A DNA stretch of 64,000 nucleotides from an uncultured bacterium. GTDB lineage: Bacteria; Bacillota_I; Bacilli_A; Erysipelotrichales; Erysipelotrichaceae. This document shows, in pieces, positions 42,982-55,111 of this stretch; within the stretch, counting starts at the first letter, position 1, and each line of letters begins with the position of its first letter. Under the pieces are notes generated by a model that was not told where the DNA came from, searched no databases, and worked only from the letters and a program-made list of their open reading frames with translations. The DNA is taken from assembly GCA_903847945.1 (NCBI GenBank), contig CAINEY010000002.1, forward strand, positions 1 to 64,000, in the 5' to 3' direction. The position numbers were made by a program, and so were the translations under genes.

Positions 42982-43131
42982 ATGAGAGACGCCATTACCT
43001 TTAAATGCACGGTCTGCGGTGAAGAGAATTACATCAGCACCCGCAATAAGAAGAAGCACCCGGAAAAAATGGAAGTGAAGAAATTTTGCCCGCGTTGCAA
43101 CAAGCAGACAGCGCACAAAGAAAGAAAATAA
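42982..43131 (+). CDS. rpmG: Ribosomal protein bL33
   Basis: A 49-residue basic protein of the large ribosomal subunit. It is the zinc-binding (C+) form, with Cys9, Cys12, Cys36 and Cys39. The stretch NYISTRNKKKHPEKMEVKKF is typical L33. The ATG follows an AAAGGAG site and has its own promoter. A terminator follows. Bacteria with a zinc-free copy elsewhere regulate the two by zinc supply; no such copy is seen here. Confidence 0.96.
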   Translation: MRDAITFKCTVCGEENYISTRNKKKHPEKMEVKKFCPRCNKQTAHKERK

Positions 43132-43148
43132 GCCTCACGGCTTTTTTT
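43129..43148 (+). terminator. Intrinsic terminator after rpmG
   Basis: Short stem AAGCC / GGCTT, loop TCAC, then a run of T to 43148. The ATG of the next gene is seven bases after the T run. Confidence 0.7.
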
Positions 43149-43154
43149 ACATCC

Positions 43155-43748
43155 ATGGACATTATCACGGTTAAAGTCGGGATCCTACAAACCAATTGCT
43201 ACATCCTAAAACAGGGGGGAAAAGCCGTCGTGATCGATCCCGGAGCCAAAGTTCAACGCATTGTGGATGCTTTGGGCGAATCTCAGGTGTTGGCGATCCT
43301 TTTGACGCATGGTCATTTTGATCACATCGGAGCCCTCAATGATCTATTGGCCGTCGTGTCGGTACCGGTCTATCTGAACCCTGAGGATGAACCGTTGCTC
43401 AAAGATTCCCAGCTGAATTATTCCTTCCCCAAACGATTTACGGTCGATGCACCGACCAAACCTTATCCAGTCAATCTGGAATTGGGCCCCTTCAAATTCG
43501 AGGTTATCGATTCGTCCGGACATACCGAGGGATCCGTGATGCTCAAGATCGGTGACCACCTGTTTAGCGGAGACACACTGTTCAAACTCAGTGTTGGACG
43601 AACGGATCTGAAGACAGGAAATCCAACTGCCATGAAGCAAACCTTGCGCAGCATCAAGTCGCTTCACGGTCCGTTGACCATCTGGCCGGGTCATGAGGAA
43701 CCCACAACCCTTGAGGACGAGCTGAATCAGAATCCGTATTTACGATAG
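43155..43748 (+). CDS. Metallo-beta-lactamase-fold hydrolase (YqgX/glyoxalase II-like)
   Basis: A 197-residue hydrolase. The binuclear metal motif THGHFDHIGA (HxHxDH) is complete, with further ligands in SSGHTEGSV, FSGDTLF and GHEEPTT. Similar proteins are annotated as hydroxyacylglutathione hydrolases, but the substrate in Firmicutes without glutathione is uncertain. The ATG at 43155 has no ribosome binding site and begins directly after the rpmG terminator, so expression by read-through is likely. The next structure is the hairpin at the comGA start. Confidence 0.9.
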   Translation: MDIITVKVGILQTNCYILKQGGKAVVIDPGAKVQRIVDALGESQVLAILLTHGHFDHIGALNDLLAVVSVPVYLNPEDEPLLKDSQLNYSFPKRFTVDAPTKPYPVNLELGPFKFEVIDSSGHTEGSVMLKIGDHLFSGDTLFKLSVGRTDLKTGNPTAMKQTLRSIKSLHGPLTIWPGHEEPTTLEDELNQNPYLR

Positions 43749-43755
43749 GAGAATC

Positions 43756-43800
43756 GGTTTCCGTCGCATATCATCAGGTATGACGCCGGAAACCTTTTTT
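43756..43800 (+). terminator. Terminator-like hairpin containing the comGA start codon
   Basis: Left arm GGTTTCCG (43756-43763) pairs perfectly with CGGAAACC (43787-43794). The stem continues inward through CG and CATA/TATG pairs with one mismatch and one bulge, to an eight-base loop at 43771-43778. Six T follow at 43795-43800. The comGA ATG (43780-43782) is in the inner right arm. It looks like an intrinsic terminator for the rpmG-hydrolase unit and also hides the start codon of the comG operon. Confidence 0.7.
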
Positions 43801-44649
43801 AAACGTTGGATGACCTTAGCGATCCAACGGAAAGCGACGGATCTTCATCTTCGATTTGAGGAGGGGAGAGGAACGTTGGAACTGCGGACTCCCAAAGGGA
43901 TGATCAAACTCAAAGAAACGACGGATCAAAGCTTACTCGAGTACCTTAAGTTTAAAGCCAATTTGGATTTGTTTCTGGGATTTACACCTCAAACCGGACA
44001 TACCAGCCTTTTGATAGGTCAACAACGCATCCACTTGCGGATTGCCTATCTCCATACGTTGACTTACGATCACATGGTCATCCGTATCCTCAATCCACCA
44101 CGATATCTCAAACCTCACGATCTCTTTACACCAAGCGATGCAATGCGAATACAAGAGTGTTTATATTCGACAAATGGCTTGATTTTGATCGCTGGAGCGA
44201 CAGGCAGCGGCAAAACAACCACGTTATATACGCTGCTCAATCACGTTCAATCGCGCAAAATCGTTACGATTGAAGACCCTATTGAGGTTCATTACCCGTT
44301 TCTGACACAGATCCAAATCAATCCGCGACAGAATTTGACGTTTGAATCCGCCATCAAACAAGTGCTTCGTCATGATCCGGATATCATCGTGATCGGTGAG
44401 ATCCGAGACGAAGTTGAGGCTAAAGCTGCCCTACGAAGTGCCTTGACCGGACATTTGGTGTTGTCGACGATTCATGCACGTTCAGCCTTGCAAACCATCG
44501 ATCGCCTCACCAACTTGGGGCTAGATCGTCAAGAGATCCTAAATACCCTCGTTTTAGTCATTCATCAGGAACTGGTGGATGAGCCTCATGGAAAGAAAGT
44601 TCACTATGTACTTTACCCAACGCTTGAACCAGCTACTGAGACAGTTTAA
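43780..44649 (+). CDS. comGA: Competence ATPase ComGA
   Basis: A 289-residue type II/IV secretion ATPase that powers assembly of the DNA-uptake pseudopilus. The amino end has the block RKATDLHLRFEEGRG. Walker A is GATGSGKTTT, the Asp box is TIEDPIEVHYP, Walker B is DIIVIGEIRD, and the His box is HLVLSTIHA. The protein is shorter than Bacillus ComGA (356 residues). The start is not marked by a ribosome binding site; ATG 43780 gives the usual distance to the ATDLH block, while ATG 43810 is an alternative. It overlaps comGB by 71 bases. Confidence 0.93.
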   Translation: MTPETFFKRWMTLAIQRKATDLHLRFEEGRGTLELRTPKGMIKLKETTDQSLLEYLKFKANLDLFLGFTPQTGHTSLLIGQQRIHLRIAYLHTLTYDHMVIRILNPPRYLKPHDLFTPSDAMRIQECLYSTNGLILIAGATGSGKTTTLYTLLNHVQSRKIVTIEDPIEVHYPFLTQIQINPRQNLTFESAIKQVLRHDPDIIVIGEIRDEVEAKAALRSALTGHLVLSTIHARSALQTIDRLTNLGLDRQEILNTLVLVIHQELVDEPHGKKVHYVLYPTLEPATETV

Positions 44650-45556
44650 GTCGGGATCGATATCCGATGCATTATGGCTCGAACTTTTGGAGAGTGGTGC
44701 TAGTTCTCAGGAGATCCAATGGCATTTTGGGTCCTTGGAAACCATAGAAAACCGTATTCTTCGCCTATCCTCGTCTGAACGTCGACAATATGTGCTGTAT
44801 GAGAATCACCTATCATCTCGACAAGCGTTGTGGTGGGTGTTGAAACAGCGTCAGGATCGACAAGGGTTCAAAAATTCACTCTGGCAAGCACTGGCCTATC
44901 CCGTCTTATTGTTTGGACTGGCATTTGTCATGATTCTCCTACTCAATCACCTCATGATTCCACGTGTATCAGGGCTATTTGAACTATCAACAACAAATCA
45001 ACCGACAGCTACCCATTTCGTCGGACTATCCATTTTGGAGTTGGTTAATCTATTGATGATTCTGCTGGGACTGATCGTTGCGCTAATCCCTGGTAAAACT
45101 CGCGATTCACTCATCATTCGTTACTATTCACACCCCATCTTGAGCGATTATCGAATTCTTATCTCGACACAGTTTGTGGATTGGACGACAAAAGGTTTGC
45201 AGTACGGATTATCGGTTCAAACCATCCTAACTCTAATGGCTTTGAGTAACGATCCCATACTGAGTCATTGGGCCGGTGTTATTCAACGTGAACTGGAGAA
45301 CGGGTACACCTTGGCGGATGCTGTTGGACATATGGATCAGTGCCTAAAGGTACTCTTTGCACGACACGACGAGGATCAACCTTTCGAAAACCGACTCTCT
45401 CGACATTATGGATTGATGTCACGAAGGGTTGATTCCTTGATCAAACGATGGCGAATGATGGGATTAGGCTGGGGATACCTCAGTTTTGGGTATCTTATTT
45501 TTACAGCTTATCAGATTATGTTTGAGCCGATTCGGCAATTGGAGCAACTCTTGTGA
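44579..45556 (+). CDS. comGB: Competence pseudopilus membrane platform ComGB
   Basis: A 325-residue type II secretion F-family inner-membrane protein. The block FKNSLWQALAYPVLLFGLAF is the recognisable T2SF entry to the first membrane helix; a second helix group lies near residues 150-170, and a last helix near the end. A second T2SF-like block is divergent. Start codon choice is open: ATGs at 44579, 44588 and 44609 are all in frame and lack a good ribosome binding site. It overlaps comGA, and ends overlapping the GTG of comGC. Confidence 0.85.
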   Translation: MSLMERKFTMYFTQRLNQLLRQFKSGSISDALWLELLESGASSQEIQWHFGSLETIENRILRLSSSERRQYVLYENHLSSRQALWWVLKQRQDRQGFKNSLWQALAYPVLLFGLAFVMILLLNHLMIPRVSGLFELSTTNQPTATHFVGLSILELVNLLMILLGLIVALIPGKTRDSLIIRYYSHPILSDYRILISTQFVDWTTKGLQYGLSVQTILTLMALSNDPILSHWAGVIQRELENGYTLADAVGHMDQCLKVLFARHDEDQPFENRLSRHYGLMSRRVDSLIKRWRMMGLGWGYLSFGYLIFTAYQIMFEPIRQLEQLL

Positions 45557-45843
45557 ACAAAGGCTTTACATTGATAGAAATGGTGGTTGTCGTGGCTGTT
45601 ATCGGCGCTTTGTTTTTACTGACGATTCCGAATGTCTCCTTGGTTCTGGATCTTTTTCTTGAGAAAGGTTGCCAAGCTCAATTGAAAGTCATCGATACCG
45701 CCCTGATCGAGTATCGGTTAATGCAGGATGAAGAGGCTCAATCCATTGAGGATCTGGTAGATGCCGAACTAATCTCTGAGGCACAAACAACATGTCAAAC
45801 ACAACTCATCAGTATCGAAGACGGAAAGGCAACCCTGAACTAA
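45553..45843 (+). CDS. comGC: Major competence pseudopilin ComGC
   Basis: A 96-residue prepilin. The leader is very short (MNKG), cleaved before Phe5, and Glu9 is the conserved +5 residue in GFTLIEMVVVVAVIGAL. The hydrophobic helix follows, then a small soluble domain with two cysteines (QTTCQTQ and KGCQAQ). It is the main subunit of the DNA-uptake pseudopilus. It starts with GTG overlapping the comGB stop (GTGA). Confidence 0.95.
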   Translation: MNKGFTLIEMVVVVAVIGALFLLTIPNVSLVLDLFLEKGCQAQLKVIDTALIEYRLMQDEEAQSIEDLVDAELISEAQTTCQTQLISIEDGKATLN

Positions 45844-45844
45844 T

Positions 45845-46147
45845 ATGACCCTCACTGAAGTGGCAGTCATGATGATAATTGTGGGAACACTCAGTGTCAC
45901 CACATCACTTCCAAGGTTGGAAGATCCCTTTCTTGATGATCTTTTTCGATCCGATATTTTTCATACTCAATTGCTTGCTCTTGCTTACTCCCAGAAACTC
46001 TATTTGGATGAACGTTGGGGAATCGAGGTTTGGTTCAATGCTAATGGTAACATCAATGAACCGGTTACCAAGACCTTTCAACAGGGTGATGTTGTTTTAC
46101 GTTTAGGAACAGGTCGATTTGATGTCCCGCGGCTATCTGACGATTGA
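45845..46147 (+). CDS. comGD: Minor competence pseudopilin ComGD, without leader
   Basis: A 100-residue pseudopilin-like protein. MTLTEVAVMMIIVGTLS corresponds to the mature pilin start, with Met at +1 and Glu at +5, so the start codon stands exactly where the prepilin leader is normally cut. A stop codon (TGA, 45836-45838) lies three codons upstream in this frame, so no leader can be encoded. The carboxy end VLRLGTGRFDV resembles the end of Bacillus ComGD. Identity rests on position, the pilin helix and this ending. Confidence 0.8.
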   Translation: MTLTEVAVMMIIVGTLSVTTSLPRLEDPFLDDLFRSDIFHTQLLALAYSQKLYLDERWGIEVWFNANGNINEPVTKTFQQGDVVLRLGTGRFDVPRLSDD

Positions 46148-46286
46148 AACCGCGCTCAGTATCATTCTGGTTATGATGGTGTTGGAGTTGTTCGTGACCA
46201 TTGATCAGCATCGAAGCGAGCTTGAGTACACTTTACTCGAAGGGGACTCCACATGCGACGTGGTTTGTTTACTCACTCAGGAATGA
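46122..46286 (+). CDS. comGE: Minor competence pseudopilin ComGE (54 residues)
   Basis: A short protein in a different frame between comGD and comGF. It starts MSRGYLTIETALSIILVMMV: leader MSRG, cleavage before Tyr5, Glu9 at +5, then a hydrophobic helix, closely resembling the ComGE start GFSTIETMSAL in Bacillus. It is about half the length of Bacillus ComGE (about 115 residues). It overlaps comGD by 26 bases and comGF by 34, which fits the packed comG operon. The short soluble part means it may be reduced, but the pilin signal is convincing. Confidence 0.8.
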   Translation: MSRGYLTIETALSIILVMMVLELFVTIDQHRSELEYTLLEGDSTCDVVCLLTQE

Positions 46287-46660
46287 CCCTGATCGATGTT
46301 GTGTTGGCGCTTTTAGTATTAATTATGCTACAGCCGATTTTGCTCTCTTCCTTAACTTTTGCGTCTAGAACAGATTTTCAATGGAATTATCGACAGAATC
46401 AACTGGGCATCCTGCAGTTGCGGCGTAAAATCGCTTTAGGCGTTGATCTGTTGCTTAACTCCTCCTCGTTATCCCTAACAATCAACGATCAACGACTCAC
46501 GTTTGTCTGCCAGGATGGACTCCTCAATCAACAACCTGGATCGATGCCTTTTCTTTATGGTTTGGATTCTTGTTCGTGGATTCGTAGAGGTCAGTTGATT
46601 ATTCTTTCGTTTAGTGAAGGGGAGGTCTCCCATGAGCTCATCGTCGGGATGTGGACGTAA
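46253..46660 (+). CDS. comGF: Minor competence pseudopilin ComGF
   Basis: A 135-residue pseudopilin. The leader ends in SG and the mature start is MTLIDVVLALLVLIM, with Asp rather than Glu at +5. The rest is a small soluble domain with FVCQDG and DSCSWIRRG, resembling the ComGF ending with hydrophobic strands. The ATG follows GAAGGGGAC. It overlaps comGE and comGG. Confidence 0.8.
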   Translation: MRRGLFTHSGMTLIDVVLALLVLIMLQPILLSSLTFASRTDFQWNYRQNQLGILQLRRKIALGVDLLLNSSSLSLTINDQRLTFVCQDGLLNQQPGSMPFLYGLDSCSWIRRGQLIILSFSEGEVSHELIVGMWT

Positions 46661-47015
46661 AGGGTTTGTATTGCTGACCCTTCTCCCAATCATACTGGTG
46701 CTTCTATCGTTTCTGAGTGTCTATTCGCTTGAAGTTTATCGTCAAACCGTCCAACAACGGTTATTGGCTTCCATGGATCGCTTCTCGTTGGTCGAAATGA
46801 CGGTGATCCATCTGGCTATTCAACAATTTCTAACTTACGATCCACATGATTTTGATCTTGAACTGGGAGGGTATGAGATTAGCGTCATTTTTGAGGATGA
46901 GACAGCGACAATTATCTACGATGAGAGCGAAGAGCTGTATGGAATTATGAGTTTTGATTTGGTGTTCGGGTACGTCACTCAGTACCGACTTGAACGAAAC
47001 AGTGATTCTGATTGA
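46632..47015 (+). CDS. comGG: Minor competence pseudopilin-like protein ComGG
   Basis: A 127-residue protein with a basic amino end (GCGRKGF) followed by a hydrophobic helix (VLLTLLPIILVLLSFLSVYS) and a small acidic soluble domain. It lacks the Glu at +5, as does Bacillus ComGG. The ATG at 46632 is six bases after GGGGAGG and is preferred over 46614. Last gene of the comG operon; the stop codon lies in the -35 box of the efp promoter. Confidence 0.78.
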   Translation: MSSSSGCGRKGFVLLTLLPIILVLLSFLSVYSLEVYRQTVQQRLLASMDRFSLVEMTVIHLAIQQFLTYDPHDFDLELGGYEISVIFEDETATIIYDESEELYGIMSFDLVFGYVTQYRLERNSDSD

Positions 47016-47621: not shown

Positions 47622-47661
47622 TCCGCTTTACATTTCTTACATTTTGAGCTACACTATCACT

Positions 47662-47767
47662 ATCTTCAGGGCAGGGTGAAATTCCCTACCGGCGGTATAC
47701 CCCGCGAGCCATTGGCATGAACCGGTGCAATTCCGGTGGCGACAGTAAAGTCTGGATGAAAGAAGAT
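47662..47767 (+). promoter_or_regulatory. FMN riboswitch (RFN element)
   Basis: The closing helix is formed by ATCTTC at the 5' end and GAAGAT at the 3' end. Internal RFN landmarks are in order: AGGGCAGGGTGAAATTCCC, TACCGGCGGTA, CCCGCGAGCC, CCGGTGCAATTCCGGT, and GACAGTAAAGTCTGGATG. It lies directly upstream of ribU and should reduce ribU expression when FMN is plentiful. Confidence 0.96.
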
Positions 47768-47817
47768 AAAATATCTTTTTGATATTTGAGCCCTGGGATC
47801 ATTCTGGGGTTTTTTAT
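47768..47817 (+). terminator. Expression platform of the FMN riboswitch
   Basis: A hairpin AAATATC / GATATTT around a T5 loop is followed by a terminator hairpin CCCTGG / CTGGGG (with G-T pairs) at about 47791-47809 and six T. The first hairpin may be an antiterminator part, so FMN control is probably at transcription. Confidence 0.7.
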
Positions 47818-47835: not shown

Positions 47836-48417
47836 ATGAAAAATCATCGTTTACGGTTGTTGACGTTGTTGAGCATGATGATCGCCTTATCATTCTTGTT
47901 GCAGTACTTTGAGTTTCCGATTCCGGCCCTCTTCCCGGCGTATTTGAAGATCGATCCCAGTGATATCCCTGCTTTGTTTGTTGGTCTGTTTATTGGCCCG
48001 GTTCCAGCCGTCATCGTGGAGCTATTGAAGAATGTCCTTCACGCGATCTTCATCTCCAAAGATCCCAACTTCTCCGGTGAAATAGCCAACTTCTTCGCCG
48101 GAGTGGCCTTCATCCTTCCGGTCGCGTGGACAGCCACATTTCTGCGCAAGAATCTGGAACATTACACCTTCAAACAAACCCTCATACGCTTATTACCGGC
48201 CTTCGTGTTAGCAGTCATCTCGATGACCGTCATGATGGCCCTGGTCAATTATTTCTTCTCGTTTCCGCTCTATGGGATGACGGAACACAGCGTCAAAGTC
48301 AGCGGAGTGATTGCGGTAACCCCGTTTAATCTGTTTAAAGGGGTGCTGCTTTCCATCATCGCGTTGGCCATCTACCCCAACATCAAACCCTTGTTTATTC
48401 GTTTTTTGTCCCGATAA
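47836..48417 (+). CDS. ribU: Riboflavin transporter RibU (ECF S-component)
   Basis: A 193-residue membrane protein with about six helices, the substrate-binding subunit of an energy-coupling-factor transporter for riboflavin. Its first block LPAYLKIDPSDIPALF-like sequence (here FPAYLKIDPSDIPALFVG) and the GPVPAVIVELLKNVLH block match the family. It needs the shared EcfAA'T module, which is not in the window. Control by the FMN riboswitch directly upstream confirms the substrate. The ATG follows AAAGGAG. Confidence 0.95.
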   Translation: MKNHRLRLLTLLSMMIALSFLLQYFEFPIPALFPAYLKIDPSDIPALFVGLFIGPVPAVIVELLKNVLHAIFISKDPNFSGEIANFFAGVAFILPVAWTATFLRKNLEHYTFKQTLIRLLPAFVLAVISMTVMMALVNYFFSFPLYGMTEHSVKVSGVIAVTPFNLFKGVLLSIIALAIYPNIKPLFIRFLSR

Positions 48418-52512: not shown

Positions 52513-53193
52513 GTGTTGACTATCGATATCCTACTCTACATTTTGGCCTTGGTCATTACGATTTGGGCTCAATCCAAAGTTCAGAACGCTTACCAGCATT
52601 TCGCCAAAGTCGCCAATGAACGCCGCTTAAGCGGTTATGCCGTTGCGCGGGACATTCTCAACCGTAACGGCCTTTATAACGTTCAGGTGCAAGTCAGTCA
52701 AAACGGACTTCTCAGTGATCACTACGACCCGAAATCCAATACGGTCAATCTGTCACCGAAGGTCTACAACGATGCCAGCATCGCTTCCGTGGCGATAGCT
52801 GCTCATGAAGTCGGTCACGCCATGCAGTATGCAGAAAACTACAGTATGGTAGGGGTACGAAACAGTTTGTTACCCCTCGCTATTGTTTCCGGACATGCCG
52901 GATGGATCGTTCTCATCATCGGCTTGGCGGCCCGTATCGATATCCTGTTTCTGGCCGGGATCATTATGGTCGGAATCATCGGGCTCTTCCAGCTCTTCAC
53001 TTTACCTTTGGAATTCGATGCTTCTAAGCGGGCTTTAGTTCAACTGAGTGATGGCGGGTATGTCAATACCGATGAGGTAGCCGATGCGAAAGAGATGCTG
53101 TCAGCTGCAGCCCTGACTTATGTCGCCGCACTGGTCGCCACGCTCTTACAAATCCTTCGCTTTGTCATGATCTACGGACGTCGTCGAAATTAA
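52513..53193 (+). CDS. Membrane zinc metallopeptidase (YugP family)
   Basis: A 226-residue membrane protease of the YugP family. The zinc motif is HEVGH in AIAAHEVGHAMQYAE. Hydrophobic helices are at the amino end, two more around 120-160, and one near the end. DHYDPKSNTVNLS precedes the active site as in the family. The start is unclear: GTG 52513 and TTG 52516 both fall on or too near AAGGAG (52508-52513), whereas the codon at the ideal distance (52522) is ATC. I use the longest frame, which matches the family's amino end. Confidence 0.9.
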   Translation: MLTIDILLYILALVITIWAQSKVQNAYQHFAKVANERRLSGYAVARDILNRNGLYNVQVQVSQNGLLSDHYDPKSNTVNLSPKVYNDASIASVAIAAHEVGHAMQYAENYSMVGVRNSLLPLAIVSGHAGWIVLIIGLAARIDILFLAGIIMVGIIGLFQLFTLPLEFDASKRALVQLSDGGYVNTDEVADAKEMLSAAALTYVAALVATLLQILRFVMIYGRRRN

Positions 53194-53216
53194 AGGATCC
53201 AAACGGATCCTTTTTT
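53192..53216 (+). terminator. Intrinsic terminator after the zinc peptidase
   Basis: Stem AAAGGATCC, loop AAAC, stem GGATCC, then six T. The left arm begins in the stop codon. Confidence 0.85.
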
Positions 53217-53252
53217 ATAGGAAGAAGGGAAGTCAGTAGCGTAAGAAGGGCC

Positions 53253-53621
53253 ATGAACACTCCCTACTTATCCCGTGAAGATCTGATCCCTGCTTCGACA
53301 TTTCTTGGTGGCGACTGTGGTTTTGACCGGGTTTACCTCAATGGTTTAGCCCCGGGTTCCTTACTGATCTCGAATGCACCCTACATGATCGTCAATTCAA
53401 ATGGATTACTGGCTGGTGTTGACGAGCGATTTACACGTTTTGAAGTAGTCAATCAAGGGATTACCGAAAAAATAGTGACACTAAATTGGAAGACGGATTG
53501 TGAAAACCAAACCTCAGCCCTTACTCCGATGACGAGTGGGATCAGCGAACTCCCAGTTCCCATTATCCTTATGATTGTCAGTGTGGTCTATCTCGCCATT
53601 TTGCGCAGGATCCGCCGATGA
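53253..53621 (+). CDS. Small hypothetical protein with C-terminal membrane anchor
   Basis: A 122-residue protein I do not recognise. There is no signal peptide at the predicted start. Residues 1-95 look like beta strands and carry two cysteines (GGDCGFD and TDCENQ). A carboxy-terminal hydrophobic helix (LPVPIILMIVSVVYLAIL) ends in the basic tail RRIRR, the layout of tail-anchored or sorting-signal proteins, though no LPxTG is present. The ATG follows AGAAGG. It overlaps the next gene by ATGA, so the two form a module. Codon use is less biased than in nearby housekeeping genes. Confidence 0.7.
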   Translation: MNTPYLSREDLIPASTFLGGDCGFDRVYLNGLAPGSLLISNAPYMIVNSNGLLAGVDERFTRFEVVNQGITEKIVTLNWKTDCENQTSALTPMTSGISELPVPIILMIVSVVYLAILRRIRR

Positions 53622-55111
53622 AAAGGTTGACTTGGTTACCCTGGTTCGTTGGGATCTGTTTTGTATTCATCACTCAGCGGGTTAATGCCGCAGACTTTCT
53701 GCCTACCACAAAAGAAGAGCTGAATTTCGAGATCAACAGCATCGAGGTCAGTGAGTCGTCGATGACGATTACCGGCTGGGCACTGATTACCGACGCTCAA
53801 CACTACCGTAGTTCGGCAGATCACAAAGTTTGGATCGAAATCCTCTCATTAACGCATCACCTAGTGATCGAAGCTCAAATCACGCCGATCAGCATGACAT
53901 CGATCTCGCTTCAGGCCGGTCAATCACTTTGTCCCGATAACGTCTACTTTTCGACAACATGCAATTACGATTATGATCATGTGGGATTTAGTGCAGTCAT
54001 CGATCTGTCGATGCTAGTCAAAGGGGAACAGTACACAACGAATATCCTGTTTTCTGCGCTTAATGCCAATGTTCAACGCAAGACACCGCTCTACTACCCC
54101 ATTATTGAACCAGTGACGAGGATGGTAGGGGACTACCGCTTCTCTGCCATCTCATCTTTGGATGATACGACACTAAGAATCTCTGCAACTCCCGTCTATG
54201 CCCGTAAAGAACCCACCAAAACATCAGCAATCTGGGCTTATGGAACCAATTGTTCAACCAGTTATGCCAATCGACTGTACTTTAGGTATGGAGCCACCTT
54301 CAATAACATACTCAATCGTTTTCCCATCGATAATCAGACCTACTATGCGATGAGCGCAAAGCTGGATATTTGTGTCGACGGACGGCGACGTATCGTTGAG
54401 GGCACGCAATTTAATCCGGTATGGATCTCCAGTTTGTTTGTTGAATACTCCGGTTCGCCCTTAACAATACGTTCAGAGTTAGTGAACACCGCTCCTGTGA
54501 TATCCGCTACTGATCAGACTGTCATGGTCGGCGAACCTGTCAATTTATTGAGTTTTGCGTCAGCTTATGATGCTGAAGAAGGCGATATCAGCCACAAAAT
54601 CGAAATTTCAAGCGATTACCGGGATCAAGCCGGAAACTACATCGTGACGTATCTTGTGGTAGACAAATACGGCTATACGGGATTAAAAACTATTCGATTA
54701 ACCGTGGTTGAACCTGATAACTCACCCCCGTACATCACAGCATTTGATAAAACCATCCTCCAGTTTATCCACTTTGACCCCTATCATGATGTCTTCGCTC
54801 ACGATTTAGAAGAAGGGGACATCACGCAAAGAATGTACGCTTCAGGAGAAGTTAATTCCGATAAACTGGGGATTTATGTGGTCTGTTACACTGTAGAGGA
54901 TTCCAAACGGCTTAGCGATGTGCAGTGTATTCAAGTAACGGTAATTTCTTATCTGGATACGTTATCAAGATATCGAATGATTTCAATTCTAAATCCATTT
55001 TATAATGAATCGTATCCAACGAGTTGGATCCAACACCTAGATGTCATACATAATCTTAAAGAAATGAGCATTCCTCTAATCTCGATACAATTACTAAAAA
55101 AGCCCCGATAG
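53618..55111 (+). CDS. Secreted protein with tandem DUF5011-like (bacterial Ig) repeats
   Basis: A 497-residue exported protein. A signal peptide occupies the first 24 residues, ending in VNA-AD. Residues about 30-280 are a region I do not recognise, rich in beta strands, with cysteine pairs (for example SLCPDN and TTCNYD). Two Ig-like repeats follow at about 290-366 and 368-444, each opening NTAPVI or NSPPYI and containing EEGDI, then a YTV/YLV-DxxG strand, features of DUF5011 domains. The last 45 residues are AT-rich, have no anchor and do not look like part of a fold. Likely a cell-surface protein acting with the small protein before it. Function unknown. Confidence 0.75.
   Translation: MKRLTWLPWFVGICFVFITQRVNAADFLPTTKEELNFEINSIEVSESSMTITGWALITDAQHYRSSADHKVWIEILSLTHHLVIEAQITPISMTSISLQAGQSLCPDNVYFSTTCNYDYDHVGFSAVIDLSMLVKGEQYTTNILFSALNANVQRKTPLYYPIIEPVTRMVGDYRFSAISSLDDTTLRISATPVYARKEPTKTSAIWAYGTNCSTSYANRLYFRYGATFNNILNRFPIDNQTYYAMSAKLDICVDGRRRIVEGTQFNPVWISSLFVEYSGSPLTIRSELVNTAPVISATDQTVMVGEPVNLLSFASAYDAEEGDISHKIEISSDYRDQAGNYIVTYLVVDKYGYTGLKTIRLTVVEPDNSPPYITAFDKTILQFIHFDPYHDVFAHDLEEGDITQRMYASGEVNSDKLGIYVVCYTVEDSKRLSDVQCIQVTVISYLDTLSRYRMISILNPFYNESYPTSWIQHLDVIHNLKEMSIPLISIQLLKKPR

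Follow-up and report, generated by a model that had tools for sequence, protein, structure and literature searches.

We analyzed a 64-kb window (64,000 nucleotides, the whole stretch of DNA under study) from an uncultured bacterium of the Erysipelotrichaceae. In this window, comGA lies between a gene for a yqgX-like hydrolase with a metallo-beta-lactamase fold and the remaining comG operon, in which comGB, comGC, and small pilin-like ORFs overlap (Table 1). The best NCBIfam model for the 289-aa comGA ORF is ATPase_ComGA, with a score of 250 bits, which is below the curated cut-off of 300; the ComGB and ComGC matches are both under their curated cut-offs as well. The hydrolase gene is itself preceded by a short terminator-like hairpin (43130-43155), which directly follows an rpmG-like ORF and is ∼7 nt from the hydrolase ATG (43155); this ATG also has no Shine-Dalgarno sequence. 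Downstream of the comG operon, an FMN riboswitch (Rfam RF00050) at 47658-47812 and then a terminator precede a membrane protein gene at 47836, which probably encodes a riboflavin transporter.

Table 1. Features of the comGA locus and of the second competence-type promoter in the window
Feature	Position	Strand	Basis
Hydrolase, metallo-beta-lactamase fold (yqgX-like)	43155..43748	+	Pfam Lactamase_B, E 2.7e-28
−35 element TAGGA, sigma-H type	43746..43750	+	AGGA at exactly −33 from the start in aligned competence promoters of 8 congeners
Terminator-like hairpin across promoter, predicted transcription start, and start codon	43756..43794	+	Fold, z-score, compensatory pairs
−10 element GCATAT, core CATA at 43767-43770	43766..43771	+	C(A/G)TA-like core at −13 to −10 in aligned promoters
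Predicted transcription start, leader of 0-2 nt	43778..43780	+	Inferred from the −10 position
comGA, predicted leaderless ATG	43780..44649	+	NCBIfam NF041000 ATPase_ComGA, E 1.9e-74; same start in congeners
T tract, six T, directly 3′ of the hairpin	43795..43800	+	Sequence
comGB, comGC, small pilin-like ORFs	44579..47015	+	NCBIfam ComGB, E 5.7e-17; ComGC, E 5e-18
Terminator abutting the second competence-type promoter	53193..53212	+	Terminator scan of both strands
Second promoter of the same class: TAGGA 53219-53223, CGTA 53240-53243, ATG 53253	53219..53252	+	Alignment
u124 family gene, 122 aa, predicted leaderless start	53253..53621	+	Same promoter geometry in relatives from six congeners

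The hairpin between the two genes has an outer stem in which 43756-43763 (GGTTTCCG) are paired with 43787-43794 (CGGAAACC), and inner pairs (GCATA..TATG) with one mismatch and one bulge. In a 57-nt fold, it reaches −22.2 kcal/mol with a z-score of −4.9, and no dinucleotide shuffle was as stable; similarly, a 50-nt version has a z-score of −5.4, and no shuffle folded equally well. Having a stable stem-loop followed by a U tract, the structure has the form of an intrinsic terminator, and it ranks first among all hairpin-plus-T-tract structures on both strands of the window (−20.2 compared with −17.9 for the next). The strong terminator shape with six T at 43756-43800 described in the original prediction is thus confirmed. 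We note that the −10 core CATA is complementary to the TATG at the start, so that part of the inner stem is expected in any case as a by-product of a leaderless promoter. The 73-bp stretch at the hairpin is present as a single copy in the genome, and we therefore rejected a dispersed repeat at this site.

The comGA ATG at 43780 lies within the hairpin stem, and no Shine-Dalgarno sequence precedes it, as had been noted originally. Several observations support that this is the right start. The equivalent position is used in all seven congeneric comGA genes, with the N-terminal residues aligned and at a fixed distance from the promoter described below, which lies upstream of 43780. The original prediction had also considered that comGA might instead start at 43810 from a downstream promoter, in which case the hairpin would merely be the 3′ end of the upstream operon. 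Although the ATG at 43810 shares the comGA frame and is not part of the hairpin, neither a Shine-Dalgarno sequence nor a sigma-70 promoter precedes it, and the starts in the congeners led us to reject it as extremely unlikely.

The claim that no promoter separates the hydrolase stop from comGA did not hold. This interval contains a sigma-H type promoter (TAGGA/GCATAT) that overlaps the hairpin, and the TAG stop codon of the hydrolase gene (43746-43748) doubles as part of the −35 box. Based on a comparison of the regions upstream of comGA orthologues, AGGA-N16-C(A/G)TA-N9-ATG precedes the gene in seven of the seven congeners that have it. The −35 box and the N11 spacing match the sigma-H consensus for the competence promoters of Listeria, AGG(A/G)WWW-N11/12-RRMGAAW (PMC4754846), while the −10 core is C(A/G)TA in most of the aligned promoters, compared with GAA, or the textbook GAAT, of sigma-H. 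A consensus scan returned no sigma-70 promoter for comG, and we rejected such a promoter as the driver of the operon; the scan misses the comG promoter because this promoter is not of the sigma-70 type. We predict from these alignments that comG is preceded by a sigma-H/ComX-type competence promoter overlapping the hairpin, and the proposed contrast between this locus and known competence promoters is not supported. In other genera of the family, GCGAATATA is found before comGA.

The same promoter precedes other competence genes. A pattern search of eight congeneric genomes, combining the motif with a fixed distance to an ATG, gave 50 hits compared with 19 in a reversed control, and a tighter variant of the pattern gave 38 hits compared with 3 in controls and additionally recovered comEA of one congener (G003). 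Many of the remaining hits opened no real ORF. Among the matched ATGs that did, family searches identified comGA, comFA, dprA, comK, and a gene for a ComEA-like lipoprotein, together with two uncharacterized families (u124 and u110) and the gene for an ABC transporter ATPase, which has this promoter geometry in two genomes (L084 and L093). Homologues from the same genomes were then aligned by start codon; this second step, which is not independent of the first, adds promoters with weaker −10 boxes and results in a set of 49 aligned promoters, or 50 when comEA of G003 is included. Among the 49, G at −32 is invariant (49/49), and A at −30, C at −13, and A at −10 are present in 47, 45, and 48, respectively. 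The genome analyzed here (G000) contributes six members, i.e., comGA, comFA, dprA, comK, comEA, and the u124 gene at 53253. A scan of this genome allowing one mismatch gave 55 hits compared with 24 in the control and is too noisy to be used alone, yet it recovered dprA. Family-wide, the strict pattern gave only scattered hits outside the genus and, of the four that were read, two opened ORFs (188 and 277 aa) without a recognized competence identity; these observations argue that the leaderless motif in its exact form is largely confined to the genus.

As related cases, competence is under SigH control in Staphylococcus aureus and Lactobacillus sakei. In the genome analyzed here, a sigma factor gene occupies the classic sigH position between rlmB and nusG (in the order cysS, mrnC, rlmB, sigma, nusG, rplK), and the best NCBIfam models for its product include SigH. 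A SigH-related sigma gene with a Sigma-70 r2 domain is present in seven of the eight congeneric genomes, the eighth of which is 57% complete. The protein of one congener (G007) matches TIGR02859 with an E value of 4e-22 but scores far below the curated NCBIfam cut-offs for SigH. We infer that SigH recognizes the motif common to the com promoters.

The com genes of the genus appear to be leaderless. When a Shine-Dalgarno sequence was scored at ≤ −6 kcal/mol with the com starts fixed, none of the 49 congeneric com starts had one, compared with 18 of 25 comGA starts of other genera (median −10.2). Such a sequence was detected in 31 of 46 genes of the window, for which the best start was freely chosen, a more generous procedure than that with fixed com starts. 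The com starts thus combine the lack of a Shine-Dalgarno sequence with a fixed distance from the −10 element to the ATG that would place +1 at the start codon. Based on the position of the −10 element and standard promoter geometry, RNA from the com promoters is predicted to begin at, or no more than about 2 nt from, the A of the ATG. Some of the other genera keep the promoter together with a leader and a Shine-Dalgarno sequence (e.g., L001, L005, L030, and L031). Two non-congeneric comGA genes, L034 (in G009) and L006, have no Shine-Dalgarno sequence and are preceded by AGGA-N16-GTAA-N9-ATG or CGAA-N9-ATG; a leaderless comG may therefore reach beyond the genus.

With its predicted start after the 5′ arm of the hairpin, the comG mRNA could not fold the hairpin, and a fold of 43780-43840, representing RNA without the 5′ arm, is not significant (z-score of −1.1). 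Most likely, the upstream hydrolase transcript ends at the hairpin as its intrinsic terminator, and the hairpin sits astride a sigma-H (ComX-like) promoter that would make a leaderless comG mRNA. According to this model, RNA begun upstream would hold both arms, so that the hairpin would fold, terminate transcription at the T tract, and bury the comGA start. RNA started by SigH would hold the 3′ arm only, would be neither terminated nor masked, and would leave its 5′ AUG free for the ribosome. The terminator would thereby act as a one-way insulator, with comG remaining silent until its own promoter is used, and not as a switch within the comG mRNA. The original prediction that comG is kept off by both termination and a hidden start is consequently expected to apply to read-through RNA; it does not extend to the competence transcripts, which are predicted to lack the hairpin.

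In the scenario first put forward for this locus, the hairpin is a regulated attenuator: transcription of comG comes from upstream and is terminated at the hairpin, which also hides the start and is opened by an antiterminator, an RNA-binding protein, or a translating ribosome. The strength of the hairpin, the burial of the ATG in the stem, and the termination and masking expected for read-through RNA fit this scenario, as does the conservation of the pairing, which the original prediction had proposed as a check. Three congeners (G001-G003) retain the hairpin in this register with a different sequence (AACTTCTGT/ACAGAAGTT); among the four sequences (G000-G003), both partners differ in 5 pairs, a modest number, and the paired cells amount to 93% in this register compared with 32-48% in slid versions. 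However, the hairpin is overlapped by a conserved promoter with a geometry that would set the RNA start at the ATG and past the 5′ arm, and a need for any of the three opening factors is not supported. Moreover, the other three congeners with comGA (G004-G006) have no hairpin at the start and carry a terminator just before the −35 box instead, which speaks against the comG mRNA carrying a conserved on/off switch. Finally, no alternative antiterminator fold was seen at the hairpin, no Rfam family matches there (the sole match in the window being the FMN riboswitch at 47658), and read-through RNA, even if opened, would have no Shine-Dalgarno sequence for comGA. Altogether, we regard a regulated attenuator as very unlikely.

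The placement of terminators across the com genes supports the insulator model. A hairpin plus T tract straddling the start is present at comEA in eight of eight genomes, with stems that differ from the comGA stem, and at comFA in the genome analyzed here. Altogether, 15 of the 50 promoters, many of which are related sequences and not independent events, have a straddling terminator, compared with about 0.2 (0.18) expected from shuffles. The location of the terminator tracks the upstream gene. When the stop codon of the gene before it touches the −35 box, as for comGA of G000-G003, comEA, and G000 comFA, the terminator lies across the start; where the gap is at least 11 nt and an upstream gene is in reach (comGA of G004-G006, comFA of G001 and G002, comK, u124, and u110), it is located before the −35 box. 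This pattern fits a terminator that belongs to the upstream gene and not a regulatory structure of the comG mRNA. As exceptions, dprA in eight genomes and the ABC transporter gene in two abut the upstream stop codon without a terminator, and insulation is therefore not universal.

It is also conceivable that the element has a dual use, i.e., that it not only terminates the upstream transcript but was also selected to lock the translation of comG read-through RNA, or is an operator palindrome acting at the DNA level. This idea draws on the presence of straddling hairpins at three of this genome's six known com genes (comGA, comEA, and comFA) and on two u124 promoters that carry a straddling hairpin in addition to an upstream terminator. 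The u124 case also counts against the insulator model, as termination may not require every straddling hairpin. However, the sequence and length of the stems vary among genes and clades, with no common operator sequence evident, and the simpler need for a terminator where a stop codon abuts the promoter covers comGA, comEA, and comFA of this genome. We therefore consider a dual use unlikely.

The u124 gene downstream of the second promoter in the window belongs to a family for which the congeneric homologue gave no Pfam match. The end of this gene is overlapped by a 497-aa ORF (53618-55111), and a similar ORF follows the u124 homologue in two congeners (G001 and G002); u124 and the following ORF are possibly a new competence-linked operon. 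The u110 family consists of small proteins of ∼110 aa ending in ..NWWM.YYS..TYYR.. and has the same promoter in seven congeners (L055, L061, L094, L096, L188, L187, and L193); these proteins are weakly reminiscent of phage late regulators and had no significant family match. The gene before comK (L182 and L190) is RidA-like in the genome analyzed here and encodes a cysteine-rich tail (..DGESCSNGSCCG), and the ORF upstream of comK ends in a similar tail (..C(T)DGTCCG) in the other congeners.

The comG and comE promoters of Listeria monocytogenes are sigma-H-dependent and resemble the promoters described here in their class (−35 AAAGGATTT, N11, −10 GARGAAT), spacing, and targets (PMC4754846). 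They differ in their distance to the gene, given as 19 nt for comG and 22 nt for comE, whereas ∼9 nt separate the end of the −10 core from the ATG here; in addition, the genes described here have no Shine-Dalgarno sequence and a C(A/G)TA −10 core, and comK, comFA, and dprA are also under this promoter. The cin-box (TACGAATA) regulon of streptococcal ComX/SigX similarly has an alternative-sigma motif common to late competence genes; in contrast, the promoters analyzed here resemble sigma-H promoters in their clear AGGA −35 box, and the regulon includes comK itself.

Leaderless mRNAs beginning at the A of the AUG are known in other Bacillota, i.e., in Streptococcus pneumoniae (PMC6212727), Streptococcus agalactiae (PMC4448216), Streptococcus pyogenes (PMC6431027), and enterococci (PMC7724050), and those of S. 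pneumoniae were directly shown to be translated, and efficiently so (PMC6212727). They make up 8-9% of transcripts in streptococci and <1% in enterococci, where they have no functional enrichment (PMC7724050). Here, by contrast, the prediction of leaderless mRNAs covers the known members of a single inducible regulon that share one alternative-sigma promoter. We tentatively raise the idea, which we think rather improbable, that the whole competence regulon of the genus is leaderless on purpose: expression would pass a double gate, consisting of SigH at the level of transcription and of conditions favoring 5′-AUG (70S) initiation at that of translation, and straddling terminators would render read-through RNA truncated and untranslatable.

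Like known intrinsic (rho-independent) terminators, the comGA hairpin has a G+C-rich stem, a short loop, and a T tract, and is located where the upstream gene ends; unlike them, it lies across the promoter, predicted transcription start, and start codon of the next gene, and only RNA begun upstream is predicted to be able to fold it. The parts, i.e., sigma-H competence promoters, leaderless mRNAs, and intrinsic terminators, are known, while their arrangement is new. A literature search of incomplete coverage, and hence a weak negative, found no report of a wholly leaderless competence regulon or of start-straddling terminators as one-way insulators.

Altogether, our findings point to a compact way of insulating an inducible gene, in which the terminator is sited so that only foreign transcripts would fold it. 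Moreover, a puzzling hairpin has led to a testable regulon comprising comGA, comEA, comFA, dprA, comK, and two uncharacterized genes under one promoter that predicts leaderless messages, and this shared promoter provides an anchor for finding new competence genes. Finally, our analysis suggests that SigH control of competence extends to the little-studied order of Erysipelotrichaceae-type bacteria, with comK downstream of SigH.
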